IMG/VR virus record: IMGVR_UViG_3300025128_000370
Coordinates: 1 to 22,726 of that record
DNA length: 22,726 bases
From: a virus
Reading direction: 5' to 3' (one strand)
Below the pieces are notes generated by a model. That model was not told where the DNA came from. It searched no databases and worked only from the letters and a program-made list of their open reading frames with translations. Each line of letters begins with the position of its first letter. The first letter of the stretch is position 1. A program made the position numbers and the translations under genes. Shown here piece after piece: positions 2,098 to 22,726 of the stretch.

Positions 2098-3456
2098 ATG
2101 ACTCTTACTCCCCCAGTAGAACAAAAAGAATATATAGATTTTCTATATAACAAGGTGGGATTTGCTCCTACAGAACTGCAAAAGCCTATTCTGGAATCCA
2201 GAAAAAGATTTATATTGGTAGCTGGTGGCGAACAAGCTGGTAAATCTATGGTTGCCAGTAAATATTTGATAGCAAGGTTTCTGGAAAATGATGAACCTGG
2301 TTTGTACTGGTTGGTTGCAGCAGACTATGAACGAACAAGAGCAGAATTTGAATACTTAGTTCAGGACTTTGCGTCTATGGGATTGTTGAAAGAAGCCTCT
2401 AAAAGAGTAGACCCTGGTAAGATTATTCTTGCAGATGATACAAGGATAGAGACTAAATCAGCTAAAGATCCAAGGACACTAGCTATGAGAGCTCCTAACG
2501 GAATCATAGGATGCGAAGCATCTCAGTTAGATTTGGAAACATTTCACAGATTACGTGGCAGATGTGCACCTAAACGTGGGTGGATGTTCTTGGGTGGTAC
2601 TTTTGAGGGATCATTAGGTTGGTATCCACAGATGTATCAGGCATGGCAACATTCTTCTAGCGTAGAAGAACAGTCATTTTCACTCCCAAGCTACTCAAAT
2701 CAGTATTTATACCCTGGTGGTAGAGAAGATCCAGAGATTTTAGCACTAGAAAGAGCATCATCTGATGACTTTTTCATGGAAAGAATTGAAGGAATACCTT
2801 CTCCACCTAAAGGAATGGTCTTTACAGAGATCAGACCTGACCTTCATGTGAAGAATGTAGAGTATGAGCCTGACACACCAGTACATTTATGGATAGACCC
2901 AGGTTATTCTGAAGCATATGCCGTTGAAGTCGTACAAGTAGTTAACGATCAGATACGAGTTATAGATGAAATCTATGAAAGAGACCTGATTACTGACGAA
3001 ATCATAGAAATTGCACAGGCAAGACCTTGGTGGAGAGATGCTAAGTTTGGAGTGATAGATATTGCTGGTACTCAGCATCAGGCTATGGCTGCTCCTGCCG
3101 AAGTATGGATGGAAAAGACTGGAATATATTTTGATTCACAGAAAGTTAAGATAAATGATGGAACAGAAAGGCTAAAAGCCTTCTTGAAAACAGATCCAGT
3201 GGCACAAAGAGAGCCGAGAATTGTATTTAATCCTAGGTGTAAAGGTATCTTGTCTGAGTTTGGAGTACAACCAAATCCATTTGATGGTCAGACCAGAGCA
3301 TATAGGTGGAAAATGGATAGAGATGGTACAATAGTTGGTGAAACACCTGAAGATAGGTACAACCATGGTGTCAAGGCAGTGATTTATGGTTTGATTAACA
3401 GGTATGGCTATGGCTATATTGCCGAAGGTAAAACTATAAAGGTTAGAAGGTGGTAA
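2098..3456 (+). CDS. terL: Terminase large subunit (packaging ATPase and nuclease)
   Basis: The 452-residue protein is the packaging motor. The N-terminal ATPase has a Walker A loop GGEQAGKS at residues 43-50, a beta strand and adenine-binding-like segment near 69-80, and a second acidic region around GIIGCEAS (135-142). That region occupies the Walker B position, although the usual run of aspartates is replaced by CE. The C-terminal RNase H-like nuclease shows three acidic positions: D267 in LWIDPG, D321 in FGVIDIAG and D419 in the final EDRYNHGVKA helix region. Length is typical for the family. It follows the small subunit by six bases, and its TAA is directly followed by the portal ATG, so the two are likely translated together. 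Confidence 0.93.
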   Translation: MTLTPPVEQKEYIDFLYNKVGFAPTELQKPILESRKRFILVAGGEQAGKSMVASKYLIARFLENDEPGLYWLVAADYERTRAEFEYLVQDFASMGLLKEASKRVDPGKIILADDTRIETKSAKDPRTLAMRAPNGIIGCEASQLDLETFHRLRGRCAPKRGWMFLGGTFEGSLGWYPQMYQAWQHSSSVEEQSFSLPSYSNQYLYPGGREDPEILALERASSDDFFMERIEGIPSPPKGMVFTEIRPDLHVKNVEYEPDTPVHLWIDPGYSEAYAVEVVQVVNDQIRVIDEIYERDLITDEIIEIAQARPWWRDAKFGVIDIAGTQHQAMAAPAEVWMEKTGIYFDSQKVKINDGTERLKAFLKTDPVAQREPRIVFNPRCKGILSEFGVQPNPFDGQTRAYRWKMDRDGTIVGETPEDRYNHGVKAVIYGLINRYGYGYIAEGKTIKVRRW

Positions 3457-5364
3457 ATGGCTAACTATAAACCAGAAGAAATCATTGCGTTAGTTGATAG
3501 TCACTACGATTTGACCGAACCTCTACGCACTCGCATGGATGATGACCATAAGCTATACAGGCTTGAAGAATTTGACGCTGGTGAAGGTTACCAGTCATAT
3601 ACTTCTAACGAACCACAAGTATATGCAGATAAATTAATCTCTTGGCTAACATCTGCTGAGATGGTAGTAAGAATCCCATATGGTAATTCTAAAAGAGAAG
3701 ATAGAGAAAATAATGATGCTAAAGAAAGATTCTTAATTGGATTAATTAAAGCTGCAGACGACAGATTGACAGCTAGGTTCCAACCCTCTGTAAGAAATCA
3801 AATGGCTTGGTTTATCACTTTACGTGGTTGGTATGCTGCAAGAGCATTGCTCGTAAAAGACGATGATGGAGATACCAATGTTGAGATTCAGCCATGGGAT
3901 CCACTTCACACATACTGGAGTGAAGGTAAGAAAGGATTATCTTGGGCTTGTTATAAAACCAAGAAAACTCCTAGTGAAATAGAAGCCATTTGGGGAGTGA
4001 AACTTGAAGGCGAAGATCAGGGAGATGATGATGACGCAGTAGATGTTTATGACTTTTATGATTCAGAAGATAATATTGTTTGTACAGAAGATACTGTTTT
4101 AAAGAAAAGAACCAAGCATGGATCAGATAGAGTACCTGTAGTTATTGGACCAGTAGGATCTAATCCACTTGTTCAGACTATTACAGACTCAGGTAACTTA
4201 GATTCCGTAGAAGATTACGGAGAATCATGTTACAAATCTTCCAGAGAATTATTTGAGAAGCATAACTTTATGATGAGTGTTATGTTAGAACTTACAGCAC
4301 GTTCCAGAAAGCAAGGACTGAAAATAAAATCCAGAGATGGTACGAAAACATTAGAAGAAGATCCTTATAAAGAGGGTTCAGAAATAGCTCTCGGTCAGGG
4401 AGAAGATGTAGAACCATTAGGTTTGTTGGAGATGGCTAGGGAATCTGGAGTGTTCATGGGTCTTATATCTGGTGAGATGCAAAGAGGTGGTTTGCCTCAT
4501 TCTATTTATGGTCAATTAGAATTTCAATTATCAGGATTTGCCATAAATACATTGAGACAAGGCGTGGAGACTGTACTGATTCCCAGATTACAGGCTATGG
4601 AAAAAGCACACAGAGCTATCTTTAATTTAATGTGCGACCAGTATATAACTGGTGCATTTAAATCAATTGAAGTTAGTGGGCAAGATAAAAACAGGATGTA
4701 CTTCAGAGAAGAAGTTACTCCTGATATGATTAAAAACGCTGGTGATGTTGAAGTTAGCTTCATCGGACAACTACCTCAAGATGAGATGGGTAAGATGTCT
4801 ATGGCACAAATTGCCAGAGAAGGTGAAACACCATTGTTACCAGATGTTTATATACGAGATAATATCTTAGGATTACAGTCAGCAGATCAGATGGAAGATG
4901 CTATAAATACACAAATAGCAGAAAGCACATTACCTGAAGCAAGACTATGGACACTACTTCAGGGTGCACAAAGACATGGCAGAGAAGATTTAGTTGAATT
5001 TTATAGGGGTGAACTTATGCGTTTATTCCTAGTTAAAAGCATGGAACAGTCACAACTGATGGCTCAAGCAAAAGCACAAGGTATGCAAGGTGCACCACCA
5101 CAAGGAGGAGGTATGCCACCAGAAATGGGTATGCCACCAGGTATGGGTATGCCACCAGGTATGGGTATGCCACCAGGCGTTGGTGGAGCTGGACCAACCT
5201 TGCCACCGACAGTTATGCCTGATGCTGCAATGGGTGTTCCACCTGTTCCACCTACTGCTCCTATGGGTCCTTTTGCTCCACCAGGAGCACCAAGACCAGG
5301 GGCTCAAAGTCCAGAAAACAGATTAGCTAATATTGGCTTAGTGCCACCTACAGAAGGAGCTTAA
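3457..5364 (+). CDS. Portal protein
   Basis: The 635-residue protein is assigned as the dodecameric ring at the head vertex through which DNA enters and leaves. Support is its place directly after the large terminase, its length, and its alternating acidic helices and beta strands. The N-terminus has a helical clip-like segment, and a long helical stretch about residues 330-420 would include the tunnel and stem. The C-terminus (about 530-635) is unlike the rest: it is rich in Gly, Met and Pro, with four tandem GMPP-type units and a proline/alanine tail. It is probably disordered and could project into or below the head. The start abuts the terminase stop. I see no conserved residue that would by itself prove the assignment. 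Confidence 0.85.
   Translation: MANYKPEEIIALVDSHYDLTEPLRTRMDDDHKLYRLEEFDAGEGYQSYTSNEPQVYADKLISWLTSAEMVVRIPYGNSKREDRENNDAKERFLIGLIKAADDRLTARFQPSVRNQMAWFITLRGWYAARALLVKDDDGDTNVEIQPWDPLHTYWSEGKKGLSWACYKTKKTPSEIEAIWGVKLEGEDQGDDDDAVDVYDFYDSEDNIVCTEDTVLKKRTKHGSDRVPVVIGPVGSNPLVQTITDSGNLDSVEDYGESCYKSSRELFEKHNFMMSVMLELTARSRKQGLKIKSRDGTKTLEEDPYKEGSEIALGQGEDVEPLGLLEMARESGVFMGLISGEMQRGGLPHSIYGQLEFQLSGFAINTLRQGVETVLIPRLQAMEKAHRAIFNLMCDQYITGAFKSIEVSGQDKNRMYFREEVTPDMIKNAGDVEVSFIGQLPQDEMGKMSMAQIAREGETPLLPDVYIRDNILGLQSADQMEDAINTQIAESTLPEARLWTLLQGAQRHGREDLVEFYRGELMRLFLVKSMEQSQLMAQAKAQGMQGAPPQGGGMPPEMGMPPGMGMPPGMGMPPGVGGAGPTLPPTVMPDAAMGVPPVPPTAPMGPFAPPGAPRPGAQSPENRLANIGLVPPTEGA
5110..5181 (+). repeat. Four 18-base tandem repeats in the portal gene
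   Basis: The unit GGTATGCCACCAGGTATG occurs at 5128-5145 and 5146-5163, with variant copies before (5110-5127) and after (5164-5181). It encodes Gly-Met-Pro-Pro-Gly-Met. The near-identity of the central copies at the DNA level points to recent slippage, so copy number probably varies between relatives. Confidence 0.85.
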
Positions 5365-7376: not shown

Positions 7377-7724
7377 ATGGCTGATAGTTTAAATGCATTT
7401 AGTGATTTTTATAGTGGGATGCTTGAAGCAGATCCTAACCTTGCCTATATGGGTCAGGTTGCTGGAACTGATTTTTCAGGCACTAAGCCCATGAAAAAGA
7501 GGGCAAAGGATTACTTTGCCAACCAGTTTGGTAATGTTTATAATCAGTATCTAGGTCAACTTGGTACAGAATATAAGCAAGGAACTGATCCTTCAAAGCA
7601 AACAACATTCACGCAGTTTTTAGAACAGCAACCATTTACTGAAAGATATGCAAGTTTATCACCATACCAAAGAGGCGTGTCTACAAGTAGATTTGCTCCT
7701 AGTACAAGGTTTATATTTTACTAA
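7377..7724 (+). CDS. Small hypothetical protein upstream of the giant protein
   Basis: This 115-residue protein has no motif I can name. Its first half is helical and hydrophobic-acidic. The second half contains aromatic-rich stretches (FTQFLEQQPFTERYASLSPYQRG) and it ends in RFAPSTRFIFY. I loosely recall the same kind of ending in proteins beside portal genes of other aquatic phages. It has a strong ribosome binding site (TAGGAGG, seven bases before the ATG), and its stop overlaps the start of the next gene as TAATG, so the two are probably made in a fixed ratio. A chaperone or a small partner of the giant protein is a reasonable guess and no more. Confidence 0.65.
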   Translation: MADSLNAFSDFYSGMLEADPNLAYMGQVAGTDFSGTKPMKKRAKDYFANQFGNVYNQYLGQLGTEYKQGTDPSKQTTFTQFLEQQPFTERYASLSPYQRGVSTSRFAPSTRFIFY

Positions 7725-10700
7725 TGGCAGATCCTAGAGATTCAAAATACATTCCAGTTAAAGAAAGAAAAGATTTTAAAGCCGATAAAAATTTATGGGA
7801 TAAGTACCCCTCTTTTTTTACCTTTGGCAATATACCTATAGCTAAAAGAGAAAAACTTGGGCAAGACTTAAACGCTTTTTCACAATGGCTAGACTCTATA
7901 GGTCAATCTGACCCTGTTCAAAAAGCTGCTTCTATCAATACATGGATTCAGGAAAATATACCCATGGGTCCTATTGGAACAGGAAAGGCTAGAGCAAAAG
8001 CATGGGAAACTGTAGGGAAACCACTGTGGGAAAAAAATAGATACCTTGCTGAAGAAAAAATGCCACTTATTACTACTGGAGAAAAGGCAAGGCTCCCTAT
8101 TTCCAAAGGTGAGGGAAAGTGGGATGCTTACAAATCTCCAGAAGGAAAGTTTGATCCAAGGGCAGTTTTGAAAGCTGCCGATGTACTCACTCCATTTGGA
8201 ACTACAGCAAGTGCTTTTGAAAATATTACAGGCAAAGAGTATAAGACCTTAAGAGATGTTAAGGTAGAAAAAGAAATAGAGAAAAGGGAACAAAAACTTA
8301 AAGAGTCTGGAATGAATCCTTTGACTCCTATTGAAAAGATACATGCAGAACGAGAATTATATCCTACGGCAGATATACCAGGAATAGAGGGATCAGGTAA
8401 GTTTATAGACGAAGTAATAGATGATCCTTTAACTTACGTACCTGCTTTTAAGACTATTTCAACAGCAGCTAAAGGTGCAAAGGCATTACAGTATACAGGC
8501 AAGGGTGCAAAACTAGGAGCAGTAGGAAAACCTGCTGCAGCCGTTGTCAGATCTGTGGGAAGTGTAGCTGAAACATTATTAAAACCTGCAGTACTTGTAG
8601 AAGATCAGTTAGTTAAGGTTGTGACTTTGCCATTCCAAGCTGCTAAAGTAACTCTTGGTGCAGTAGGAAGTGGAACCAAATCAATAACAAATACTCTCTT
8701 GAGGAGAGTTTCAGATCCTGAATTGGGTCCTATGATTAGTGATAAAGGCACACAATACCTAACGAAATTAGAATCTAAAGCAGGTAAAGCTTGGGCGAAG
8801 CAGACACATGAAAATATAGCAAACGAAGCTAAAAGTATATTTTCCAAAACCCCAGATTTAGACACAACTGTTGCTTATAGAAATAGTGCGACAAGAAGAT
8901 CAGCGATAAGTCAAGGAAAAGATATTACGCTTAATCTCGAGCAAGGCTATGAAGATGTGTTTAGAAGTGAGTTTATGAAACTCAAACACGAAAGAAAGGC
9001 AGCTAGATTTGAAGGAGTATTAGCTGATTTTTTCAACTCAGATGTTACCCAAAGGTCTTTCAGGACTGTAGGCGACTCAGCGACAACTGTTAGAAAGAAG
9101 ATAGATAACTATGCTTCTATTGCAGGTAGAAGATCAGGAATAACTAAAGTTTTTACTGCTGACAGCTTTCACAGAATTGCAAGGTGGAATCCATTTGTCG
9201 GAAACTCTCAATACACAATAGAGAATCTTTTAGATGCTGCTGTTGTAGCACAATTTAAGAATGTATATACAGAACAAATGCCTAAAGGATATTGGAAAAA
9301 CAAAGCACTTATGAAGGGAATGAAAGCTCTAGAAAGGGAAATGGAAAGAACTGGAGATTTCAGTGCCCTCAAGTTATCTAAAGCCAAAGGTATAGGGGGG
9401 AAACAAGGCAATGCTGCATTTGAAGATCTCATAAAAGACTTGTCTTATTTGTTTAGAGAATTTGACAGCGTTAATAGAAAGTTGCTAAAAACCAAACCGA
9501 TGTATAGCTTTGACCAGTGGATAGATGCATTACAAAAATATACACTGGGCACACGTACTGTTGAAATTGGAAAGCTACACCCATCCAGATTAGAGCCTAA
9601 AAACTTGCCTATGTTTCACGATATTACCAAGGGATCAGATTATGTAATGCAAGTGAAAATATCTACAGGCAAAGAGGCTAAGATAATAGATGCTCCTTTC
9701 TACCCTAATTACACTCAAATGACAAAGGCTATGATTGATCCATCTAATACAACAGTTTCATGGATTAACAAAACTGCAATAGCAAAAAATTTGGGCATAC
9801 CAGAAGAAGGTATAGGTACAATAATAAAAGCTCATAGAACGATAGTAGACCTATACGATCAACTCAGGATGAGGGAAGCAAGTAAGTACGGAGGATTTTT
9901 AAGTAAAGAAGAACTTGAATTTTTACAAGAGTGGCATCCTTCATACATGCCACTACATTATACCGACACCAAAGGCATGGGTGGGTTTACTGCTATCTCA
10001 GGAAGAAGCAAAGGAGCTACTGATAATGGTATTAAATCATTAAGTGAAAACCCAGGAGAGCAACACATGTTGCCTTTGTTAACGCCTGAAGGTATTGGTT
10101 TTGACTTAATAAGACACAGTACAAAAATGCTATATAACGAGATTAAGCGTAATATATTTGAATCGTTAAAGTTAATTCCTATTGATCCTAATGTTCCTAT
10201 TACAAGAACAGCAGACGGAAAGGTTAAGGGTAGTGTTTTCGATGCTTGGTTTACAGATTTAACAGATGACCCTAGATTTGTCACAATATCTAAGAGACCA
10301 GATGGAAGCATAGAAAGAACGTACAAGGAATTAACTGGAGAAGGAGATCTTGGAATAGGGTATGATTCCAAGATAGGTAGTGGGTATGAAACCTATTGGA
10401 TGAACGGAGTAAGGCAAAACGTAGGCAATCCCACAGGTGGAAGATTAGATAAAGAGTGGTGGGATATGTTAAATAACGAAAATGCCTTTAATTTTTTTGG
10501 AGAGACTCGAGGAAAAATACAAGGATTTTTGGGAATGGTTAATGGGATTTATAAAACTATGTACACCAGAATATCTCCTAAGTTTTGGATTGTTGCTGGT
10601 GTATTGGATAATTATATGGCATGGTTTAGGCATGAGACTAACCCAGTTAAATCAACACGTATAATAGTAGCAAGTATGGCAAAAGCTATGGCAAAGATTC

Positions 10701-13660
10701 CAGACAATCAACTGATTCCGTCAAGTTGGAACCCAAGGAAAAGTAGATTAGATATAAAAGCAGCCAGGGCAGTGGGTAAAGAAGACCAGTACCTTAACTG
10801 GTTAAGAGTTGTAACAGGAGATAGGTTAGGGGAATCAATGCAACGAGGTTCAGGGTTTGCCCTTGGAGAAGTTGGAACTATGAATCCTGGTACTGCTTCA
10901 TATTCAGGAAAGATGGCTAATATAAATAAAAGAATTAATAAACAAGGGATTAATGCAATCTTTGTTAATAGCAAAAAAGAAGCCGAGGAGCTAACACTTC
11001 GGCAAGTATATGACAATTTACCAAAGGGTGCAACCAAAAAAAAGCAAGACTCAGGTCTCCAGATTGAATTTATGACTCCTAGTAAATTAAGAGAAGTAGG
11101 GAAAAAAGTTAAAGGTGCTGCTAAAGGCACTGTGGATGCACTTGCTTCTCCTGGTTCTCACCTTGAATTGGGTCCAAGGAAAGCAACTGCGATCAAGTCT
11201 TTAACTGACTACAACTCTAGAAATCCAATAGGTAAAGCTGAATTTGATAAGTTTTTTAGCACATGGGCAAGGCTAAAAGGTAGAGGATTAAATGAAGAAC
11301 AATTTAAAATCCAGATGTATAAAAACTGGATGCCTTCATTTAAGCCAGACGGAACAGCCGTAACTCCTCAAAATTCTCCTGAATTGTTTAAACTTGTAAA
11401 AATTGCAGACGGAGTATTTGTAGATGAGCCTGTTGGGTTAGGTTATGGATTAATAGATTCTCCAGAATGGAAAGCAGCAGAATTTTTAAGCCATTCTGTT
11501 ACGTTAGACTTTCAGTATGGATCTCAAATTGCATTAAAATATAGACACATGTTTGCTTATTTAGTTTCTATGCTAGAAGGTCCTAAACAACCATTTAAAG
11601 CAATCGGTCTCAATATAGATTTAATTACAAGACCAGTTAAAAGAACCAGTACAGATGATCCGTTTTATGAATGGGGAGATATATCAGAACAATTTATCAG
11701 GCTACTTCAGCCATTTAAAAGAAAGGGTGCTACTGGTCAAACAAGGTACTTACTTAATCAAGGTCCTTTAAAAAGTGCAATGAAACTTGCTGGTGTGTTG
11801 GGTGCATATCGAGCTCTTTCAGATTTTAACTGGAGCTTTGAATATGACGGCATTCCAGTTATGAATGACGTTTCTAAGTATATTAGAGATAAATCTATAT
11901 TTATAATAACTGGATTCCAAAGAGAAGAAACTGGAGATCTTAAGCTTGATAAAAATAATAGACCTATACCTAATGTAGCTATTTTTGTTCCTAAGAAAAG
12001 AGACTTTGCAGCATTTTTTAATACAGTAGATTTTTTTGATGCAGCTTTAAGGACAGATGAAGAAGTACAACAGCTACACCTTCAGAGCAAGAGAGAATTG
12101 GGATGGGATTTGTTTAGAAATGCCTTCGAAGAATCATATACTGGTGAAATCCCTGGACCTTTTGCTATCAAAAAGTTATTATCGGTATATACAGGATATG
12201 ACTCTTATACTGACAGACCTCTTATATCTGAATACTTAAAGCAAGAAGAACACAAAGCTGTAGATACAGATAAATATGATTCTAATACTCCTACTTCTAT
12301 GAGATATATTGCAGAAAAAATTAACCCAGCAATACAAGACGTTTTTGGCTTGGTGGAAAAAGTAACGTTTGGGGCACTAGACCCAGAGACAGAAGGGGTG
12401 AGTCCAGCATGGCTAGATGCAACATGGGAACTTTTAACAGCTAGTTCTGTTCGAGAAGTATTTCCAAAAATGGCAGATAAGGCAGTTGTGAATAAATACT
12501 TCAGGGATAAAATTACCAATTCTTTAGTAGGCGATTTGAAAGGTACTGATGTACCTTCATTGTTAAAATTAGTTGAAGAATATAAAAATGATATGACAAC
12601 TACAGAACAAAAAGAGTTTATGACCGACCTACCGATAGCTGAACGTGAATTATTTAAGAAGCTATTAAAAGAACCTGAACTTGCACTGGATGAAACTTTT
12701 CTTCCTTTCTGGGACACTATTAAGAAAGCGTTTTATGGTCCTTATGGTGGTGGCATGAAGTCTATTGGCAGAGAAAGGGCAGAAGAATACCTAAAGGGTA
12801 AAGGTATATCTATAGATAATTCACATAATGCTAGTGCAATAAAGTTCAGGAGGCAAGAAGAAGAAAGAATCCTAGACGAACAAAAAGAAGATGACAGAAG
12901 GTTAGAGATATGGGTAAATGACCCCTCAAGTAAAGAAGGTTTAAGTGGAACTGAATGGAAAAAAAGAACTACTAAAAGGCGTACTGAGTTAAGGACTATA
13001 AAAGATGCTATTAAAAGAAATCCTAGTTACAAGAACTCTCTTTATGCACAGGATAACGAAACACTAAATGAATATTACAAGCTAATGTATACTGCTGGTG
13101 GAACTGTAGACGATCTTAGAGGTCTTGTTCCTGAATTGTTAAATCTATATTACCAGATAGGGGAAACACTTCCAGATGACCCTAACTCTACCGACTTTGC
13201 TAAGTATGATCAGGATATAAATAACTTTAAAAATCGTATCAAGGCAGACTTTGGATCTGAAACTCTGGCACAGCTTGAAAGATCTATAGAGGCGTCTAAG
13301 ACCGATGCTCAAAAGATGGAATCAGAAGCTGATGAAGAAATGAAAAGATATTTCAACATAGGCAGTAACATTGATGACTTATATAAGTTAAGCCAGATAG
13401 AAGGAATAGAGGAGTGGTGGCAAAGTTATCTAAATGCTCCTGATAAATTAAATTTCCAAAACGATCCTAAGAGAAATAACTTTAAAGGAATTAAAATAAG
13501 TGCTCTTATAGTAAGGCGTAAGCAAATTAGAGATGCTTTCTTGGCACAAAACCCAAGAATTGAACGTAGATTGATATTCTTTTATGGTGGAAGATTCTTT
13601 AATCCTGTAACACGTGGTGGTGCTGAATATCATAACAAGATGTATCAGTCAAAAAAATAA
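7724..13660 (+). CDS. Giant (1978-residue) polyvalent/internal virion-like protein
   Basis: This gene fills a quarter of the window. The protein is mostly helical, with no signal peptide. Residues about 225-310 start with an IDDPLTYVP segment, of a kind I associate with large internal virion proteins, and continue into Ala/Val/Gly-rich stretches that could touch membrane. Residues about 920-985 resemble the 'large polyvalent protein' domains of phages (a VNGIYKTMYTRISPKFWIVA stretch, then DNYMAWF). The last 350 residues are charged coiled coil, ending in an Asn-Pro, aromatic and Gly-rich tail (AQNPRIERRLIFFYGGRF). Proteins of this type are carried in the capsid and injected with the DNA, and may form a trans-envelope conduit or act on the host. 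I could not identify a lysozyme, polymerase or protease active site. A siphovirus tape measure is less likely because no tail-tube genes are present and it precedes the scaffold. Confidence 0.7.
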   Translation: MADPRDSKYIPVKERKDFKADKNLWDKYPSFFTFGNIPIAKREKLGQDLNAFSQWLDSIGQSDPVQKAASINTWIQENIPMGPIGTGKARAKAWETVGKPLWEKNRYLAEEKMPLITTGEKARLPISKGEGKWDAYKSPEGKFDPRAVLKAADVLTPFGTTASAFENITGKEYKTLRDVKVEKEIEKREQKLKESGMNPLTPIEKIHAERELYPTADIPGIEGSGKFIDEVIDDPLTYVPAFKTISTAAKGAKALQYTGKGAKLGAVGKPAAAVVRSVGSVAETLLKPAVLVEDQLVKVVTLPFQAAKVTLGAVGSGTKSITNTLLRRVSDPELGPMISDKGTQYLTKLESKAGKAWAKQTHENIANEAKSIFSKTPDLDTTVAYRNSATRRSAISQGKDITLNLEQGYEDVFRSEFMKLKHERKAARFEGVLADFFNSDVTQRSFRTVGDSATTVRKKIDNYASIAGRRSGITKVFTADSFHRIARWNPFVGNSQYTIENLLDAAVVAQFKNVYTEQMPKGYWKNKALMKGMKALEREMERTGDFSALKLSKAKGIGGKQGNAAFEDLIKDLSYLFREFDSVNRKLLKTKPMYSFDQWIDALQKYTLGTRTVEIGKLHPSRLEPKNLPMFHDITKGSDYVMQVKISTGKEAKIIDAPFYPNYTQMTKAMIDPSNTTVSWINKTAIAKNLGIPEEGIGTIIKAHRTIVDLYDQLRMREASKYGGFLSKEELEFLQEWHPSYMPLHYTDTKGMGGFTAISGRSKGATDNGIKSLSENPGEQHMLPLLTPEGIGFDLIRHSTKMLYNEIKRNIFESLKLIPIDPNVPITRTADGKVKGSVFDAWFTDLTDDPRFVTISKRPDGSIERTYKELTGEGDLGIGYDSKIGSGYETYWMNGVRQNVGNPTGGRLDKEWWDMLNNENAFNFFGETRGKIQGFLGMVNGIYKTMYTRISPKFWIVAGVLDNYMAWFRHETNPVKSTRIIVASMAKAMAKIPDNQLIPSSWNPRKSRLDIKAARAVGKEDQYLNWLRVVTGDRLGESMQRGSGFALGEVGTMNPGTASYSGKMANINKRINKQGINAIFVNSKKEAEELTLRQVYDNLPKGATKKKQDSGLQIEFMTPSKLREVGKKVKGAAKGTVDALASPGSHLELGPRKATAIKSLTDYNSRNPIGKAEFDKFFSTWARLKGRGLNEEQFKIQMYKNWMPSFKPDGTAVTPQNSPELFKLVKIADGVFVDEPVGLGYGLIDSPEWKAAEFLSHSVTLDFQYGSQIALKYRHMFAYLVSMLEGPKQPFKAIGLNIDLITRPVKRTSTDDPFYEWGDISEQFIRLLQPFKRKGATGQTRYLLNQGPLKSAMKLAGVLGAYRALSDFNWSFEYDGIPVMNDVSKYIRDKSIFIITGFQREETGDLKLDKNNRPIPNVAIFVPKKRDFAAFFNTVDFFDAALRTDEEVQQLHLQSKRELGWDLFRNAFEESYTGEIPGPFAIKKLLSVYTGYDSYTDRPLISEYLKQEEHKAVDTDKYDSNTPTSMRYIAEKINPAIQDVFGLVEKVTFGALDPETEGVSPAWLDATWELLTASSVREVFPKMADKAVVNKYFRDKITNSLVGDLKGTDVPSLLKLVEEYKNDMTTTEQKEFMTDLPIAERELFKKLLKEPELALDETFLPFWDTIKKAFYGPYGGGMKSIGRERAEEYLKGKGISIDNSHNASAIKFRRQEEERILDEQKEDDRRLEIWVNDPSSKEGLSGTEWKKRTTKRRTELRTIKDAIKRNPSYKNSLYAQDNETLNEYYKLMYTAGGTVDDLRGLVPELLNLYYQIGETLPDDPNSTDFAKYDQDINNFKNRIKADFGSETLAQLERSIEASKTDAQKMESEADEEMKRYFNIGSNIDDLYKLSQIEGIEEWWQSYLNAPDKLNFQNDPKRNNFKGIKISALIVRRKQIRDAFLAQNPRIERRLIFFYGGRFFNPVTRGGAEYHNKMYQSKK

Positions 13661-14523: not shown

Positions 14524-15408
14524 ATGGCACAGACAGCCACAACTGGGAATTTAGAAAATGCCCAGAAAATAATACTTAGTTCTGCTCGATATACAGAGGA
14601 GCATAACGCACCAGCTTTAGCCCTTATAGAACAATTTAGTTTGCCTAAAGGTGCAAAGCAGGTAACAGTTCCTAAAGTAGGACAAATGTCAATGTCTGAC
14701 TTAGTTGACGGACAAGACATTATTGATGAAGAAGAAATTGGAATGTCTACTGTTGACTTAACAGCATCAGAAGTTGGAGCTAAAGTTATATTAACTGACA
14801 AGTTAGTACGACAAGCAGCCGACAATGTTTTCTCAATGATTGGGAGACAGCTTGGTGATGGTATGGCTAGAAAGAAAGATACAGATGTAATAGCTTTGTA
14901 TGCAAATCTTAATAGTGATGCTTCTACTTCAGTATATGGTGGTGATGGTCAAAGTATGACTGCTTCAAACCTACATGCTATCATATCTAAGGCTAAAGCT
15001 AATAAGTTTGGATCACAGTTGTATATACTTCATCATCCAAATGCTGTAGCTGCTCTTTCAGGGCAAGCTGCAACAGTTGCTGCTACAGTAGGTGGAGAGC
15101 TTACAAGTGGATGGAGTGTAGACTTGTTAAAGAACTTCTATAGTGGGTTACGACCAATTAATGGCGTACCTATTTTTGAAGATGGTAATATCTCTAAGAT
15201 AACTGGCTATGATTCTGGTTATGGAGTTATAGCTGACAAAACAGCTATGGCTGCACTTACTAGTGTTGAAACCAGAACTGAACGACAAAGGGATGCGTCT
15301 CTTAGGGCTACAGAAGTGGTCATGACTAGTGATTATGGCGTTTTTGAGCTAGATGATACTAGAGGAGCACCTGTACAATTTGAGATTGGTGACTTAACAA
15401 CTTCATAA
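14524..15408 (+). CDS. Major capsid protein (HK97-like fold)
   Basis: The 294-residue protein is assigned as the main head subunit. Residues 1-35 look like an N-arm, with a beta-rich extended-loop region about 45-82 (VTVPKVGQMSMSDL, then a run of acidic residues). A long spine-like helix follows about 88-130, and the P- and A-domain-like remainder includes LYILHHPNAVAAL (about 160-175) and PINGVPIFED (about 213-222), patterns common in HK97-type coats of aquatic phages. The protein is short for a coat, with no N-terminal delta domain to be cleaved, consistent with a separate scaffold gene upstream. The ribosome binding site is GTGAGG. Position, length and composition agree, although no single motif is diagnostic. 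Confidence 0.85.
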   Translation: MAQTATTGNLENAQKIILSSARYTEEHNAPALALIEQFSLPKGAKQVTVPKVGQMSMSDLVDGQDIIDEEEIGMSTVDLTASEVGAKVILTDKLVRQAADNVFSMIGRQLGDGMARKKDTDVIALYANLNSDASTSVYGGDGQSMTASNLHAIISKAKANKFGSQLYILHHPNAVAALSGQAATVAATVGGELTSGWSVDLLKNFYSGLRPINGVPIFEDGNISKITGYDSGYGVIADKTAMAALTSVETRTERQRDASLRATEVVMTSDYGVFELDDTRGAPVQFEIGDLTTS

Positions 15409-15420
15409 TGGGAGCATAAA

Positions 15421-15840
15421 ATGGCAGGTATAACAGAACGAAATGCACAAAAAATAGAATTAGCTAATAGTGGTTTTTCTATGAAATATATAGATGAATG
15501 GCAACCCAAGACTACACTGTATAGGCATAAGCCTATTTATGCTTTAGATGGTAGCATCTCTCAAGATGTTGGATCAAAAGCAGAACAAGTCCCTGGTAAT
15601 CCAGACTATGTATTGAGGAAAGCTAAGATTGGTCTATTTCCTTGGAAACCTAGTTCTGAATGTGACTGCCAATGGTGTGGTGAATCTTTTGCTAAAGCAG
15701 AAGTTGTAGTTGATAAACCTACAAAGTCTATTGCTGTAACTGAAACTTGTAAGGCATGTGGTTTTAAGATGGAAGCTAAAAACAAACTTGGATTAAGCTC
15801 TAAGATTAGATCACATAACTCAAAGGTTCATTCAAAATAA
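15421..15840 (+). CDS. Zinc-finger head-region protein (hypothetical)
   Basis: The 139-residue protein has a disordered basic N-terminus and a C-terminal zinc module: C83 and C86 (CQWC), C110 and C113 (CKAC), plus C81, and a final H132 and H137 in a basic tail. Two knuckles of the C-x2-C type separated by about 23 residues make a treble-clef or ribbon site. The histidines could add a second, C2H2-like one. It follows the capsid gene by 12 bases, with a GGAG ribosome binding site. The position suggests a head-associated or co-expressed protein. Zinc fingers can also bind nucleic acid, so it could act on viral or host transcripts during late infection. Its true role is unknown to me. Confidence 0.65.
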   Translation: MAGITERNAQKIELANSGFSMKYIDEWQPKTTLYRHKPIYALDGSISQDVGSKAEQVPGNPDYVLRKAKIGLFPWKPSSECDCQWCGESFAKAEVVVDKPTKSIAVTETCKACGFKMEAKNKLGLSSKIRSHNSKVHSK

Positions 15841-17280: not shown

Positions 17281-18511
17281 GCAATCTATAGGATATAACT
17301 TAGGTGCACTGAAAGTAGGCACAGCTACAGGTGGTACTAATAACACATTGATAGATGTTAATACTTTTAGAGGTGGAGATGATGAGTATATTGGTAAACT
17401 AGCCTTAGTTACTGATGCTACTGACAGTTCTCAAACTACACAATATGTTAATGATTATACAGCTAGTAATAATACTATTCAGTTTCAACAAAATGCCAGT
17501 TTCACAGTAGCTAGTGGTGATGAATATGAATTATGGAGTGAGCCTTATACACCTACAAGAATACATGACTTTATTAATCAGGCAATTATAGATGTTACTG
17601 GACAGGCATACGATCCAATAGAGAGTGTTGCATTACATGCTGATGGTTCTAGCATGAGATATCCTGTACCTTCTAATATATCTATTATCAACAGATTATA
17701 TTACAGAAGTTCAGTATCTTTCACAGAGTTACATAGTTGCAACTCAGCATTTGACGAAACAGTAGATTCAGACTTTACAGTTACTGCTGATACTAACGAT
17801 AAGAAAAAGGGAACAGCTAGTAATAAGTTTGTTATAGCATCAGGTGCAAGTCAAAACGACATAGCTACTGATTCTATATCTAGTACAAACATAAGTAAGT
17901 ATGATTATTTAGAATGTTGGGTTAAATCTACAGTAAATGTTACAGCAGGTAATTTACAAATATTATTGGATGACTCAGCTAGTTGTGCTAGTCCATTAGA
18001 ATCATTAGATATACCTGCATTAACTGCTGATACATGGACATTTGTTAGGATTAAATTAGATAACCCTGAGACTGATACAGCTATTATATCTATAGGATTA
18101 AAATATGGTCTTGATTCTGATTTAGGTGCATGTACTATCTGGCTAGATGATATCAAGGTAGTACAAAACGATACTGCTGTATGGGAGATATTCCCAAAAC
18201 ATCTATGGAGAGTCGACAGAGAAGCTAGGGCTCTAGTATTAACTGATTCTGGCAGACTTGAATCTGGTTATGCTTTACTAAAGATAGTTGGTGGAGATAA
18301 ACCTGCATTACTCTCAACAGAAACTGGTGCTAGTGAAATAGATGATTCATATATTATAGCTAGAGCTACAGCTTTAGCATTTTCCTCTGCGTCTGGTGGA
18401 GCTGGTACTGATCCAGATTCTTTAAGACAGCAATCTGCTTTCTGGTTTGGGTTGGCAGAACAATCTAAGAGAGCCTTTCCTTTATTAATCACAGGGAGAG
18501 TAGTTGAATAA
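17246..18511 (+). CDS. Head-tail adaptor-like protein with inserted carbohydrate-binding-like domain
   Basis: The 421-residue protein appears built in two parts. Residues 1-160 and about 311-421 form the frame: a helical start (TRKQLRQSIGYNLG), a beta section with GGDDEYIG, a helix around PTRIHDFINQAIIDVTG, and a C-terminal helix around LRQQSAFWFGLAEQSKR. I associate this pattern with proteins that sit under the portal in podovirus-like phages. Residues about 161-310 look like an independent beta-sandwich, with alternating strands, few charges and a final IWLDDIKVV, typical of carbohydrate-binding jelly rolls. It lies directly before the nozzle-like gene, as T7 gp11 lies before gp12. The ribosome binding site GGAG is inside the preceding gene. 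The adaptor role is inferred; the insertion is visible in the sequence. Confidence 0.65.
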   Translation: MPVQARTRKQLRQSIGYNLGALKVGTATGGTNNTLIDVNTFRGGDDEYIGKLALVTDATDSSQTTQYVNDYTASNNTIQFQQNASFTVASGDEYELWSEPYTPTRIHDFINQAIIDVTGQAYDPIESVALHADGSSMRYPVPSNISIINRLYYRSSVSFTELHSCNSAFDETVDSDFTVTADTNDKKKGTASNKFVIASGASQNDIATDSISSTNISKYDYLECWVKSTVNVTAGNLQILLDDSASCASPLESLDIPALTADTWTFVRIKLDNPETDTAIISIGLKYGLDSDLGACTIWLDDIKVVQNDTAVWEIFPKHLWRVDREARALVLTDSGRLESGYALLKIVGGDKPALLSTETGASEIDDSYIIARATALAFSSASGGAGTDPDSLRQQSAFWFGLAEQSKRAFPLLITGRVVE

Positions 18512-20520
18512 TGGCAAACAAGGTAGTAACAAAGAATGAGATATATCTAGGTGGAACATATTATCCACTGGCAAGACCAGTACAAAGTACATTAGCTTCT
18601 ATATATCCTTCTAAGGTTGTTATAGGAGATACTACCAAGGATTCTAATTTACGATCTTCTGTTGTTGCATGGTCTGATTGGCGAGGTGGCATTGGTGTAG
18701 AGAGGATGCAAGGACCTGCTGACGTTGATAGAGCATGGTATTCTACTTGTAATTTGAGACATAGACATCACTTGGTATTACCTTCTCTATCTACAATTAC
18801 AGCTCAAGTTAGTGATGTTACTACAGATTCTGAAGATAACTCTGTTGAAGGAATAGTTAATTTTATTCAAGACTTAGGTGAGGACTTGTATGCCAGTTGG
18901 GATACAAGACCTTATTATTACACAAAAGGTGATGACAGGTGGGTCAGGGTTACTAGTGGTGGAAGTCCTTATAGCTTCTTTAGTACCCCTACAGATTCCA
19001 TTACTGTTCGTATGGATACTACTGATTATATAGTAGTTGCCCAAGGAGATGCTGGGTATAGTTATTTTTCTTCAGCCACTACTGTTGTTGACAAGAAAGT
19101 TAGCGATAGTTTTAAAGCCACAACATTTATAGCTTTTTGGGATGACAGATTGTGGGGTATATCAGATGCTGGTCAATTATGGTACACGCTTACTATGGGT
19201 GGAACCCAAGTTAATGATGCCACACTACCTGTACAAGACGGATATGTTACTGACTTGTTTGTTGGAAGGGATGCCACTGGTGAGCAAATCTTATACGCAG
19301 CGACTAAAGTTGGATTATTTGCACATGACGTTGCTAATAGTAGGTTTGTAGAAACTCAGTTCCAGTTACCTTTTCATAATTTTAATGGAGTAGGTAGCGT
19401 TAGATGGAGAGATGCTATATACAATCCTAGTGGATTAGGTATTTATAAATATATCAATGGTAACAATAATGCTGTTGTAACTGTAATGGGTCCTGACAGG
19501 GATGATGGTTTGCCCTCTACATATAGGGGTAGCATAAGGAAACTGATAGGTACACATACAGAATTATTAGCTGCAGTAGATGCAACTACATCTCCTGGTG
19601 CTCAAGCTAGTACAGATGTATCTTGGCAACGTGGTCATAGCACAGGGCTTGGTGGACACAGTTCAAGTTATATGGGTCAAAGCACTGGGCAATCTTCTAT
19701 AGTAGCTTGGAATGATATGGGATGGGAAACCAAATGGGTTGCATCTGAAGTAAACAAAGGTAAAGCTGTTGATAAAATGTTAATATCTAATGCAGGTAAA
19801 GGTGATTATAGGCTGTGGTGGGGATTTAATGGAAAGGTATATCACCAGTTAATTCCATATGATGTTACCAATCCCTCGCAGTTAAGTTCTCCAGATGGTA
19901 CAGATTATGCTTATGCAGAAAGTGCTTTTCATGAGACGCCTTGGTTTGACGCACAGCAATCAGATGTGGATAAGTTGGCATTAAAACTAAAAGTAGAATG
20001 TCAGGATATTTCTGCTAACGAAACTGTGGTAGTTCAATATGCCTTGGATTATTCTGAGTCTTATGAGAGTACTAGTTTTACTGTTAATAGTACCACTCTT
20101 GGTGCTACTTCAGGTACTTATACACATACATTTCAAACAAGTAGTGCTAATATTGGTACTGCGTTTAGATCAATTAAGTTTAAGTTAACACTAGCTAGAG
20201 AGTCTGGTTCCACATCAGCTATTATGAAAAAGACTCCTGACGTAGTTTCTATATCATTAGAATATAGAAAGAAGATGGATCCCAAGTATGGTCATAGTGT
20301 AGAGGTTAACTTAAATAAAACATATAAAGGTAAAAGCCCTAAACAACTAAGAAGTGCGTTAGTTTCTGCGATAGAATCTAATACATTAAATGAGTTTACG
20401 TTTAGAGATGACAGTGGTGGTGATCGTAATTATTATGTAGATGTTACGTCTGCCACAGGTATAGAGTATACAGGATATGATGAACGAGGAACCTCTAGGA
20501 TTACGTTGGTGGAACCATGA
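18511..20520 (+). CDS. Tail nozzle-like (tubular) protein
   Basis: The 669-residue protein is rich in strands and aromatic residues, with repeated blocks such as FIAFWDDRLWGISDAGQLWY and QILYAATKVGLFAHD (about residues 200-270). These resemble blades of a beta-propeller, the core of podovirus nozzle proteins. The N-terminal part contains the tryptophan-rich VVAWSDWRGGIGVERM (about 50-65). The C-terminal 100 residues, starting KMDPKYGHSVEVNLNKTYKG, form a separate beta domain. The stop of the adaptor overlaps this start as TAATG, and its own end overlaps the next gene by ATGA. Gene order supports a tube at the bottom of the neck. A baseplate or receptor-binding protein is the main alternative. 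Confidence 0.6.
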   Translation: MANKVVTKNEIYLGGTYYPLARPVQSTLASIYPSKVVIGDTTKDSNLRSSVVAWSDWRGGIGVERMQGPADVDRAWYSTCNLRHRHHLVLPSLSTITAQVSDVTTDSEDNSVEGIVNFIQDLGEDLYASWDTRPYYYTKGDDRWVRVTSGGSPYSFFSTPTDSITVRMDTTDYIVVAQGDAGYSYFSSATTVVDKKVSDSFKATTFIAFWDDRLWGISDAGQLWYTLTMGGTQVNDATLPVQDGYVTDLFVGRDATGEQILYAATKVGLFAHDVANSRFVETQFQLPFHNFNGVGSVRWRDAIYNPSGLGIYKYINGNNNAVVTVMGPDRDDGLPSTYRGSIRKLIGTHTELLAAVDATTSPGAQASTDVSWQRGHSTGLGGHSSSYMGQSTGQSSIVAWNDMGWETKWVASEVNKGKAVDKMLISNAGKGDYRLWWGFNGKVYHQLIPYDVTNPSQLSSPDGTDYAYAESAFHETPWFDAQQSDVDKLALKLKVECQDISANETVVVQYALDYSESYESTSFTVNSTTLGATSGTYTHTFQTSSANIGTAFRSIKFKLTLARESGSTSAIMKKTPDVVSISLEYRKKMDPKYGHSVEVNLNKTYKGKSPKQLRSALVSAIESNTLNEFTFRDDSGGDRNYYVDVTSATGIEYTGYDERGTSRITLVEP

Positions 20521-20810
20521 TATATGACGCAGGTACTACAAATGTTGCTACGGCAGGTACGGAAGTACAAATATCTAACACAACCAATAGAGTCCGTTGG
20601 ATAAAAGTAAAAGCACTGGCTGGTAATTCTAATAAGGTTTATTTAGGTGTTAGTGACGTTACAGCTAGTAATGGGTATGAACTATCTGCTGGTAACGAGA
20701 TAGAAATGAGTTTTGCAGATCAAGGTGGAACAGTACCTTTTAGTGCGTTCTACGTAGACGCAGCTACCAACAATGATAAGGTTTGTTGGTCAGTAATATT
20801 GGATGGATAA
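20517..20810 (+). CDS. Small beta-sandwich virion protein (hypothetical)
   Basis: This 97-residue protein overlaps the nozzle-like gene by four bases (ATGA). It is almost entirely beta strand with Thr, Ala and Asn loops, with segments such as VRWIKVKALAGNSNKVYLGV and PFSAFYVDAATNNDKV. I see no catalytic residues. The composition fits a small virion surface or fibre-anchoring protein, and similar proteins occur beside fibre genes in aquatic phages, as far as I recall. The stop overlaps the next start as TAATG. Confidence 0.6.
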   Translation: MIYDAGTTNVATAGTEVQISNTTNRVRWIKVKALAGNSNKVYLGVSDVTASNGYELSAGNEIEMSFADQGGTVPFSAFYVDAATNNDKVCWSVILDG

Positions 20811-21208
20811 TGGTTACAAAAGCAGACATAATGAATCCACCTACAGAGTGGGTTGGATCCAGACCAGAGTGGATGTTTTATGCCAGTTTAATAGACTTAG
20901 GATACCAACCAGGGGATGATTTTACCTATCAATCACCATTAATGGGTGGTAGACTAGATAAAGGTGGTATAATTGTTGACTTTATTTTTGACAACCCACC
21001 TGGTCTTGCAGTAAATGTTCAAGGGATATATTATCACTATGAGCTAGGAGCTGATACTGGAGCCAGAGATATAATGGCTAGAGAGGCTTTAGCAGGACAA
21101 GGAATAACATTAATATTTGTAGATGAAGATGACTTAGAGCAAGACCCAGTAGGGGTCACTAGGGAGGCATTACAATTTAGAGACAGTTCTCGACTAGGAG
21201 GAAGATAA
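20810..21208 (+). CDS. VSR/DUF559-like nuclease-fold protein, probably inactive
   Basis: The 132-residue protein has the layout of the very-short-patch-repair (VSR)/DUF559 endonuclease fold: E20 in the first helix, the strand pair ending GGIIVDF with D57, a core strand at LAVNVQG (66-72), H76 in YYHY, a helix RDIMAREALAGQG, and a last strand LIFVDEDDL. In active members the core strand carries an acidic pair (like IELDG), but here those positions are N69 and Q71, so metal-dependent cutting seems lost. The start at 20810 (TAATG overlap) is chosen over an upstream in-frame ATG at 20783. It is encoded among tail genes, so a structural or adaptor role for a former nuclease is plausible. The alternative is a nuclease with a different active site. 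Confidence 0.6.
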   Translation: MVTKADIMNPPTEWVGSRPEWMFYASLIDLGYQPGDDFTYQSPLMGGRLDKGGIIVDFIFDNPPGLAVNVQGIYYHYELGADTGARDIMAREALAGQGITLIFVDEDDLEQDPVGVTREALQFRDSSRLGGR

Positions 21209-22726
21209 TGGCAAAACCAGGTTTAAGCTTTGCAGGATTTTTATATGATGATGCAGGAGATGCAATTAATGGTGCTACCATTAACTTGTATGCTAAAAAT
21301 GCAACGTCTACTTCTTTAGCTAATACTACCACTAACTCATCTGGCTATTGGGCTATAAGTCATACTCCAGCATCAGGAGAAGCTGGTGAATATGACGTTC
21401 AGATCACTTCAGGAGCATCAAAGAGGCGTATTAAATTTGATGATGCAGTCCAACTAGCATCTCTTGACGCAGAGACTCTCTCTGTGAGAGGCAATGAAGG
21501 AGCATCAGCAACTTATTATATGTTTGCTGATGAGGGTGAAGATGCTGGTGATAGGTGGAAGGTCAATGTTGCTGATGGTGGTGTGATGACATTTGGTAAT
21601 GACATCAACTCCCAGAATACATATGTAACTCATTTGACAATAACTCCTAATTCTACAGTGGCAAGTTCTACAGTAGCTGTAGCAGGACACCTTGATGTTG
21701 ATGGTACTGCTAACTTAGATGCTGTAGATATAGATGGTGCAGTTCAGGCAGATGGTACTGTAACTGTTGGTGTTGATGACACAGGATATGATGTTAAATT
21801 CTTTGGTGCATCAGCTGGTGCATTTATGTTATATGATGAATCTGTAGATCAATTAGAAATTAGAGGAGCATCAGCAGATGCTACTACCAGTACAGGTAAA
21901 TTATTATTATCTACTGCTCTTACTAATATTAATGCTAATGATGTTATAGGTAAAATAGACTTCCAAGCTCCATTAGAGGCTGGAGGTACAGATGCTATTA
22001 CTGTTGCAGCTTCAATTCAAGCTATAGCACAGGGTACATTTAGTGCTTCTGTTAATTCTACAGACTTAATCTTTTACACAGGACATTCAGAGGCAGCTAC
22101 TGAGAAATTCAGATTTACCAGTCAAGGTGAATTGGGTATTGGTGGTGCTACGTATGGTTCTAGTGGTGATGTATTAACATCAGGTGGAGCAGGAGCTGCT
22201 CCCACATGGGCTACACCAACGACAGGAGATATCACAGGTGTAACTGCTGGTGATGGTCTATCAGGTGGAGGTACGTCTGGTACAGTATCCCTTGCTTTAG
22301 ACTTCAACGAACTGACAGCAGCAGCAGTTGCTGATGGCGATTTTATTCCAATAATAGATACCAATGATTCCAATGGTTCAAGAAAAGAAGCAGTCCATGA
22401 CCTAGCTACTTTGTTTGCTGGTGCTGGTATGACAGCTACAAGTTCTGTAATGAACGTCATTGGTGGGGATGGTATTACAGCAAACTCTAATGATGTAGCT
22501 ATAACTGCTGCTCAGACAACTGTAACTTCTGTTTATAATACTAGTTTGAAAATGGGTAGGGATAGTCAAAACTTAATTGACTTTGCTACTACTGATAACA
22601 AAATCATACTTAGAGTAAACAATGTAGATGAAGTAGAGTTAGTAGAAAATGCTTTGTCTCCTGTGACATCTGATGGTGTTGCACTGGGTACAGGTTCTTT
22701 GATGTGGCAAGATTTATTCTTGGCTA
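21208..22726 (+). CDS. Tail fibre protein, cut by the window edge
   Basis: The gene starts at a TAATG overlap with the previous stop and runs open to the last base (506 codons seen). Residues 1-75 form a small Ig/transthyretin-like domain (a GFLYDDAGDAINGATINLYA strand, then a pattern ending EYDVQITSGASKRR), probably the virion-attachment end. The rest is low-charge and repetitive, rich in Gly, Ala, Thr and Asp, with short strands suited to a trimeric beta shaft. It includes the DVKFFGASAGAFMLYDES block (about 195-212) and GDVLTSGGAGAAPTW (about 319-333), both common in phage tail fibres. The visible end (GTGSLMWQDLFLA) is of the kind that precedes a final receptor-binding or S74-type self-cleaving chaperone region, which would lie beyond the window. 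Receptor and host cannot be read. Confidence 0.85.
   Translation, partial: MAKPGLSFAGFLYDDAGDAINGATINLYAKNATSTSLANTTTNSSGYWAISHTPASGEAGEYDVQITSGASKRRIKFDDAVQLASLDAETLSVRGNEGASATYYMFADEGEDAGDRWKVNVADGGVMTFGNDINSQNTYVTHLTITPNSTVASSTVAVAGHLDVDGTANLDAVDIDGAVQADGTVTVGVDDTGYDVKFFGASAGAFMLYDESVDQLEIRGASADATTSTGKLLLSTALTNINANDVIGKIDFQAPLEAGGTDAITVAASIQAIAQGTFSASVNSTDLIFYTGHSEAATEKFRFTSQGELGIGGATYGSSGDVLTSGGAGAAPTWATPTTGDITGVTAGDGLSGGGTSGTVSLALDFNELTAAAVADGDFIPIIDTNDSNGSRKEAVHDLATLFAGAGMTATSSVMNVIGGDGITANSNDVAITAAQTTVTSVYNTSLKMGRDSQNLIDFATTDNKIILRVNNVDEVELVENALSPVTSDGVALGTGSLMWQDLFLA

Follow-up and report, generated by a model that had tools for sequence, protein, structure and literature searches.

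The window, i.e. the whole stretch of 22,726 nucleotides that was analysed, carries a terminase gene, an ORF in the portal position, a capsid gene and a group of tail genes that includes an open reading frame (ORF) of 132 aa at positions 20810-21208. The capsid gene is followed, in this order, by a 421-aa ORF, a 669-aa ORF, a 97-aa ORF, the 132-aa ORF and an open-ended fibre-like ORF. The features are as follows:

2098-3456: terminase (PHROG match, 4.4e-16)
3457-5364: 635-aa ORF in the portal position
7724-13660: 1978-aa ORF between the portal-like and capsid genes
14524-15408: capsid protein (Pfam Phage_capsid_4, 3.1e-10)
18511..20520, plus strand: P22 gp10-like (nozzle/DNA-stabilising) tail gene, 669 aa (BFVD structural matches; constantly upstream by synteny)
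20517..20810, plus strand: 97-aa ORF, no function assigned; separates the nozzle and nuclease-fold genes only in part of the lineage
20810..21208, plus strand: coding sequence of the Vsr/EDxHD-fold protein, 132 aa (translation, AF2 model, structural alignment, residue conservation)
21196..21201, plus strand: AGGAGG within the final codons of the nuclease-fold gene, probably serving the fibre-like gene as ribosome-binding site
21208..22725, plus strand: fibre-like ORF, open at the window end (start conserved, end variable across relatives)

The 132-aa ORF shares one base with each of its neighbours: it begins on the base that ends the stop codon of the 97-aa ORF (20810), and its own stop codon ends on the base that opens the start codon of the fibre-like ORF (21208). 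Its translation contains E20, D57, N69, Q71, H76 and D87 as well as the acidic run D105-E106-D107-D108, which confirms the VSR/DUF559 layout of E20, D57, H76 and an acidic end that the initial annotation had described. In viral contigs the protein has 161 relatives, the best 80 of which were used, and the median dN/dS of the gene is 0.104 (maximum 0.257 over 198 pairs), i.e. it is under purifying selection. Judging from these homologues and this selection, the ORF is protein-coding, and a chance ORF at this position is ruled out.

The predicted structure of the 669-aa protein upstream combines a propeller with a beta-rich end (pLDDT 80.5). Among its structural matches in BFVD are entries that bear the name P22 Gp10 DNA-stabilising (one of them at E 1.1e-13); the PDB matches were filled with propellers, and the likeness to P22 gp10 is based on the BFVD names. 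Because of this likeness, we consider the 669-aa protein a probable short-tail nozzle. The gene downstream of the nuclease-fold gene was represented by 61 complete examples of 436-1107 aa. When its ORFs were compared pairwise, 1640 of 1830 pairs aligned at the N-terminus and 299 of 1830 reached the C-terminus. As a conserved start and a variable end are typical of tail fibres, we refer to this gene as fibre-like. The nuclease-fold gene is thus encoded among tail genes, as proposed initially. Its last codons contain a ribosome-binding motif in 39 of 50 distinct ends, compared to 181 of 1272 control stretches. Since the likely ribosome-binding site of the downstream gene overlaps these codons, the conserved C-terminal G-G of the protein is at least partly explained, and a special C-terminal tail motif was rejected as an explanation. 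The conservation of D125 and S127 is not accounted for by this overlap.

Fold of the 132-aa protein and its known relatives

An AlphaFold2 (AF2) model of the 132-aa protein, employing an alignment of 59 relatives, reached a pLDDT of 78.9 and a pTM of 0.77, with low confidence near H76 (residues 74-76 under 50). Structural alignment of this model by VIA-align ranked Vsr, the very short patch repair endonuclease of E. coli (PDB 1CW0, 1VSR), at the top (1cw0; Z 8.6, 3.2 Å, 106 aa), followed by 3r3p, which is the homing endonuclease I-Bth0305I (Z 8.3), and 3hrl, which is NGO0050 (Z 8.2). With Vsr and I-Bth0305I in the two highest rows, a restriction-like alpha/beta core is present, and the proposal of a nuclease fold is supported. 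Two mitoribosome chains, 9i05 and 9g6k, also display a Vsr-like fold (Z 7.5-8.0), and 9i05 (Z 8.0) scores nearly equal to the top ranks. Foldseek alone returned no PDB or BFVD match for the AF2 model at E ≤ 0.001.

Profile comparisons point to the same family. An alignment of profiles with seven phage homing-endonuclease-like domains gave a probability of 96.2 and an E-value of 2.2e-9, with E20, D57 and H76 in register, and an HMM made from nine family members detected four of these seven among 17,200 frames (2.8e-8 to 5.9e-6). These are C-terminal domains from F-LimVIII, F-LimIII, Lak, PA5oct and VPALA, carried by larger frames of 402-495 residues as read, some of which are cut by the sequence stretch. 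In the first profile search, 3R3P was the only PDB chain and matched weakly (E 0.62); a 50-aa piece of it, used as query, found no match in phage records. For the 132-aa protein, neither Pfam, with its DUF559 model (PF04480), nor NCBIfam gave a match at E ≤ 10, and PHROG gave none at E ≤ 1, while the Vsr model (PF03852) found no match anywhere in the window at E ≤ 10. Some of 25 relatives scanned gave weak matches to MTES_1575 (7/25, best E 0.032), DUF559 (1/25, E 0.25), DUF2726 (1/25, E 0.14) or a homing endonuclease PHROG (3/25, best 0.038). Based on the model and the profiles, the protein is best read as a single-domain member of the Vsr/EDxHD branch of the PD-(D/E)XK fold.

I-Bth0305I, the prototype EDxHD homing endonuclease, is intron-encoded, and the EDxHD family was reportedly first found in a NAR 2009 paper. 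In the alignment, I-Bth0305I has G and D counterparts for G72 and D87, and carries E and N at the places of N69 and Q71. Its crystal chain reads A at the place of H76, presumably as a result of engineering. I-Bth0305I is multidomain and dimeric and has a long target, as stated in parts of PMC3943268, whereas the 132-aa protein is a single domain fixed in a tail module. In the same parts of this review, EDxHD enzymes are said to consist of a nuclease domain joined to a long region that binds DNA; an extra region of this kind was not seen here, as the nuclease domain spans all 132 aa. Distant EDxHD/Vsr-like domains behind CapR-like domains are known from phage group II introns, according to excerpts of PMC12350094.

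The mismatch-repair context of Vsr is absent for the 132-aa protein. Residues E, H and D of Vsr are the sequence counterparts of E20, H76 and D87, and D51 of Vsr corresponds to D57 (D51 and D87 placed by hand); D51 and H69 of Vsr are named in sections of PMC11879112. There, the mitochondrial protein FASTKD4 is described as Vsr-like, and the authors hold that it is no nuclease. FASTKD4 has N at the place of the active-site H69 of Vsr, whereas H is kept in 84 of 85 relatives of the 132-aa protein. A full-text literature search, mostly at the level of search results, returned no report of a phage tail module that has a Vsr-like protein as a fixed member.

Conserved residues and the N-x-Q strand

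Among 70 distinct homologues, which were detected by their own motifs, E20 was present (gaps set aside) in 69/69, D57 in 70/70, H76 in 70/70 and D87 in 68/68, N69 in 67/70 (two E, one S) and Q71 in 67/70 (two S, one L). As a set collected in this way is biased toward intact motifs, the sample was re-collected through the upstream 669-aa gene, yielding 88 distinct proteins, three of which are cut before D57. The codons of interest, with the conservation in this second sample, are:

20867..20869, plus strand: E20, the helix acid, conserved in 88/88
20978..20980, plus strand: D57, conserved in 84/85
21014..21016, plus strand: N69, conserved in 85/85; homing-endonuclease relatives have E or D here and Vsr has F
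21020..21022, plus strand: Q71, conserved in 84/85; homing-endonuclease relatives have N or Y here and Vsr has H
21035..21037, plus strand: H76, conserved in 84/85
21068..21070, plus strand: D87, conserved in 83/85

Fixed E, D, H and D residues are what the EDxHD motif denotes, as read from the family name, and E20, D57, H76 and D87 provide exactly these. All four are near-invariant in proteins as low as about 40% identity. Of this set the initial annotation had named E20, D57 and H76, which are indeed conserved, and had missed D87, which belongs to it. D87 sits 11 residues ahead of a glycine, and D is found likewise in Vsr, the 3r3p chain, MaeS and PA5oct (placed by hand), while four of the phage homing-endonuclease-like domains (L187, L189, L191 and L194) carry H at this place. 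One relative, L312, has N there, and its near twin L313 has D.

N69 and Q71, which had been seen as departures from an acidic pair of active enzymes, proved to be conserved in the family alignment. In the strand, N69-V-Q71-G aligns with F-T-H-G of E. coli Vsr and with E-x-N-G, D-x-N-G or E-x-Y-G of the homing domains. The place of Q71 is taken by N, Y, S or H in relatives, and one homologue from outside the nozzle-gene sample, L028, has S69 and L71. The expectation of acidic residues therefore holds for N69 and not for Q71: since no acid is usual at the latter place, Q71 is no acid loss, and only N69 is a true replacement relative to the homing enzymes. Moreover, as Vsr has F and H at these places, an active family member needs no acidic pair there. 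The N-x-Q strand is best read, from sequence comparison, as a lineage-specific replacement at strand positions that are changeable within the family. A nuclease stripped of its active site is contradicted in general, as almost every relative retains E20, D57, H76 and D87.

Synteny, co-inheritance and one divergent branch

The sample gathered through the upstream 669-aa gene and an alignment of its relatives employed the best 80 of 358 relatives. The nuclease-fold gene lies downstream of the nozzle gene in 113 of 137 distinct contigs (114 of 140 loci when three duplicates are still counted). The remaining 24 are not assessable, as 16 have a truncated nozzle gene and eight end within 368 nt past it. 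Thus none of the 113 assessable contigs with a nozzle gene and sufficient room lacks the nuclease-fold gene, and the sporadic presence with empty sites expected of an EDxHD homing endonuclease was not observed. An earlier, smaller count had found the gene in 47 of 49 cases; in the other two, the sequence left room for only 319 and 334 nt. Some members of the lineage have the 97-aa gene, or another small gene, between the nozzle gene and the nuclease-fold gene. The initial statement that relatives are widespread at the same place in phage genomes was borne out as far as the place is concerned.

Across 104 contigs, distances between nuclease-fold proteins follow those between nozzle proteins (Mantel r 0.876), with none of 999 permutations reaching as high a value. 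Taken together with its dN/dS, the gene is fixed, co-inherited and strongly constrained. Being present in every relative that could be checked, it appears to be a fixed working part of these phages and not a selfish passenger or a dead enzyme. The protein had no match among 50,697 phage records, and the family had no match in the genome collection except one bacterial bin, which was reached via a distant relative. The group is therefore nearly unstudied. The relative in this bin, Bacterium HR28 (L195, 8001-8426), is of the E69/S71 type and shares 96% identity with its counterpart in a viral contig.

One contig, L136, which was found via the nozzle gene, departs from the common pattern. It shows the changes D57T, Q71H, G72Q, H76N, Y77G and D87E and misses part of the G-G-R loop, while it retains E20, N69, D105, D125 and S127, an open frame of 124 aa and the position of the gene between the 97-aa gene and the fibre. 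The protein differs by 44-49% from relatives whose nozzle genes differ by 19-22%. Its identity to these relatives is 36-42% at residues 38-82 and 64-70% at residues 83-132. Among 31 otherwise conserved columns, 13 are altered: 11 of the 19 that fall within residues 38-87, against two of the remaining 12 (Fisher p 0.032). The 40-kb contig contains no second copy of the nuclease-fold gene. Since L136 keeps the gene without D57, H76 and D87, catalysis may not always be needed, and a putatively dead fold is supported in this one branch, which is represented by one contig with saturated dS.

To place N69, we consulted a quick tree of 61 rows, in which the N-x-Q rows were thinned to about half and branches are long; homing domains and Vsr, in which place 69 is E, D or F, served as outgroup. 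Next to this outgroup the tree places three E69/S71 relatives (two viral contigs and one bacterial bin), followed by the N-x-Q group, into which L028 (S/L) and L136 fall. The simplest reading of this topology would be a single change from E to N at the base of the N-x-Q group. Two E69 relatives, L121 and L122, are likewise found downstream of a nozzle-like gene.

Predicted role and alternative explanations

In the explanation that we consider most likely, with a probability somewhat better than even, the 132-aa protein is a nuclease of Vsr/EDxHD type that consists of one domain, has an N-x-Q strand peculiar to its lineage and is still active, catalysis being predicted; its gene would have become a fixed part of the tail module in a lineage of uncultured, probably short-tailed phages. 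As the gene sits between the nozzle gene and the fibre-like gene, the protein is probably made together with the tail through predicted co-expression. E20, D57, H76 and D87 would form a metal and general-base site, to which E20 may supply the second acid as in Vsr. The protein is predicted to be a metal-dependent DNA endonuclease that acts late in infection, at or near the assembly of the tail or DNA exit. Gene order suggests this association with the tail and also the candidate substrates, which might be a protruding or leaking DNA end or competing DNA. Alongside the probable activity, a non-catalytic contribution is possible. Between the two readings offered in the initial annotation, an unusual active site fits better because the four residues are kept in nearly all relatives, and reuse as a structural or regulatory protein is weaker, though alive through L136.

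A mainly structural or scaffolding tail protein, with no more than vestigial catalysis, if any, and a pocket retained for folding or to bind metal, comes next and is doubtful in our judgement. It would agree with a presence as constant as that of a tail gene (all 113 assessable contigs), with the invariant N69 in place of the usual strand acid, with the ORF, place and C-terminal identity that L136 keeps after its changes at D57, Q71, H76 and D87, and with the non-nuclease use of a Vsr-like fold in FASTKD4 (sections of PMC11879112). However, a scaffold need not keep E20, D57, H76 and D87 near-invariant down to about 40% identity, and L136 is a single contig with losses mostly in residues 38-87. 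It is likewise rather unlikely that the protein is an obligatory tail part of a large lineage of uncultured phages, with a modified catalytic site and a non-catalytic role, one branch having shed the catalytic residues, so that a transition from nuclease to virion part would be underway.

Other roles would draw on the kinship with phage homing endonucleases or on the late-type gene order. A domesticated homing enzyme might promote exchange of the adjacent fibre gene and thereby swap receptor-binding ends, as the gene borders one whose start is conserved and whose end is variable. This is improbable, since the 132 aa show no additional domain for DNA binding and many phage fibres vary without such a nuclease gene. 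Homing-type genes do border exchanged phage modules in the portions of PMC10448857 that cover them, but that paper depicts such genes as unstable and interchangeable; the gene studied here, in contrast, is fixed and co-varies with the nozzle gene. A Holliday-junction or packaging-branch nuclease seems very improbable: archaeal junction resolvases do appear in the structural list (2eo0, Z 5.5; 2wj0, Z 5.2), yet more weakly than Vsr, and two of 37 proteins scanned in the 47-kb relative G006 match the RusA-like resolvase families phrog_1682 and phrog_34, which argues against a resolvase role in G006 only. We regard a selfish, free-standing homing endonuclease as the least probable of all. The relationship to EDxHD/Vsr-type homing nuclease domains speaks for it, but the distribution contradicts it, as every assessable contig carries the gene, and so do the co-variation with the nozzle gene and the single domain, given the additional DNA-binding regions of the EDxHD homing enzymes reviewed in parts of PMC3943268.

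If the active-nuclease explanation is correct, tail closure or DNA exit in such phages would involve a nuclease-fold protein dedicated to it, of a kind that model phages are not known to have. The N-x-Q strand and the natural L136 variant would then offer comparisons of the fold with and without its catalytic residues, and the family would be an example of a homing or repair nuclease fold that became a fixed phage-assembly part.

Several further ORFs of the window have features of their own. The 635-aa ORF in the portal position ends at its C-terminus in a repeated Met-Gly-Pro-Pro-rich stretch. The 1978-aa ORF has no Pfam match and is possibly a giant internal or ejected virion protein. On the minus strand, a 244-aa ORF (101-835) contains PDYV...FLVEAKG, which by eye resembles a canonical PD-(D/E)xK core; it was among 25 unrelated proteins scanned, one unnamed member of which matched PDDEXK_1. 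The ORFs at 15421-15840 and 1070-1513 both carry paired CxxC motifs that look zinc-ribbon-like by eye, and the former shows a weak zinc-finger Pfam match (E 0.02).
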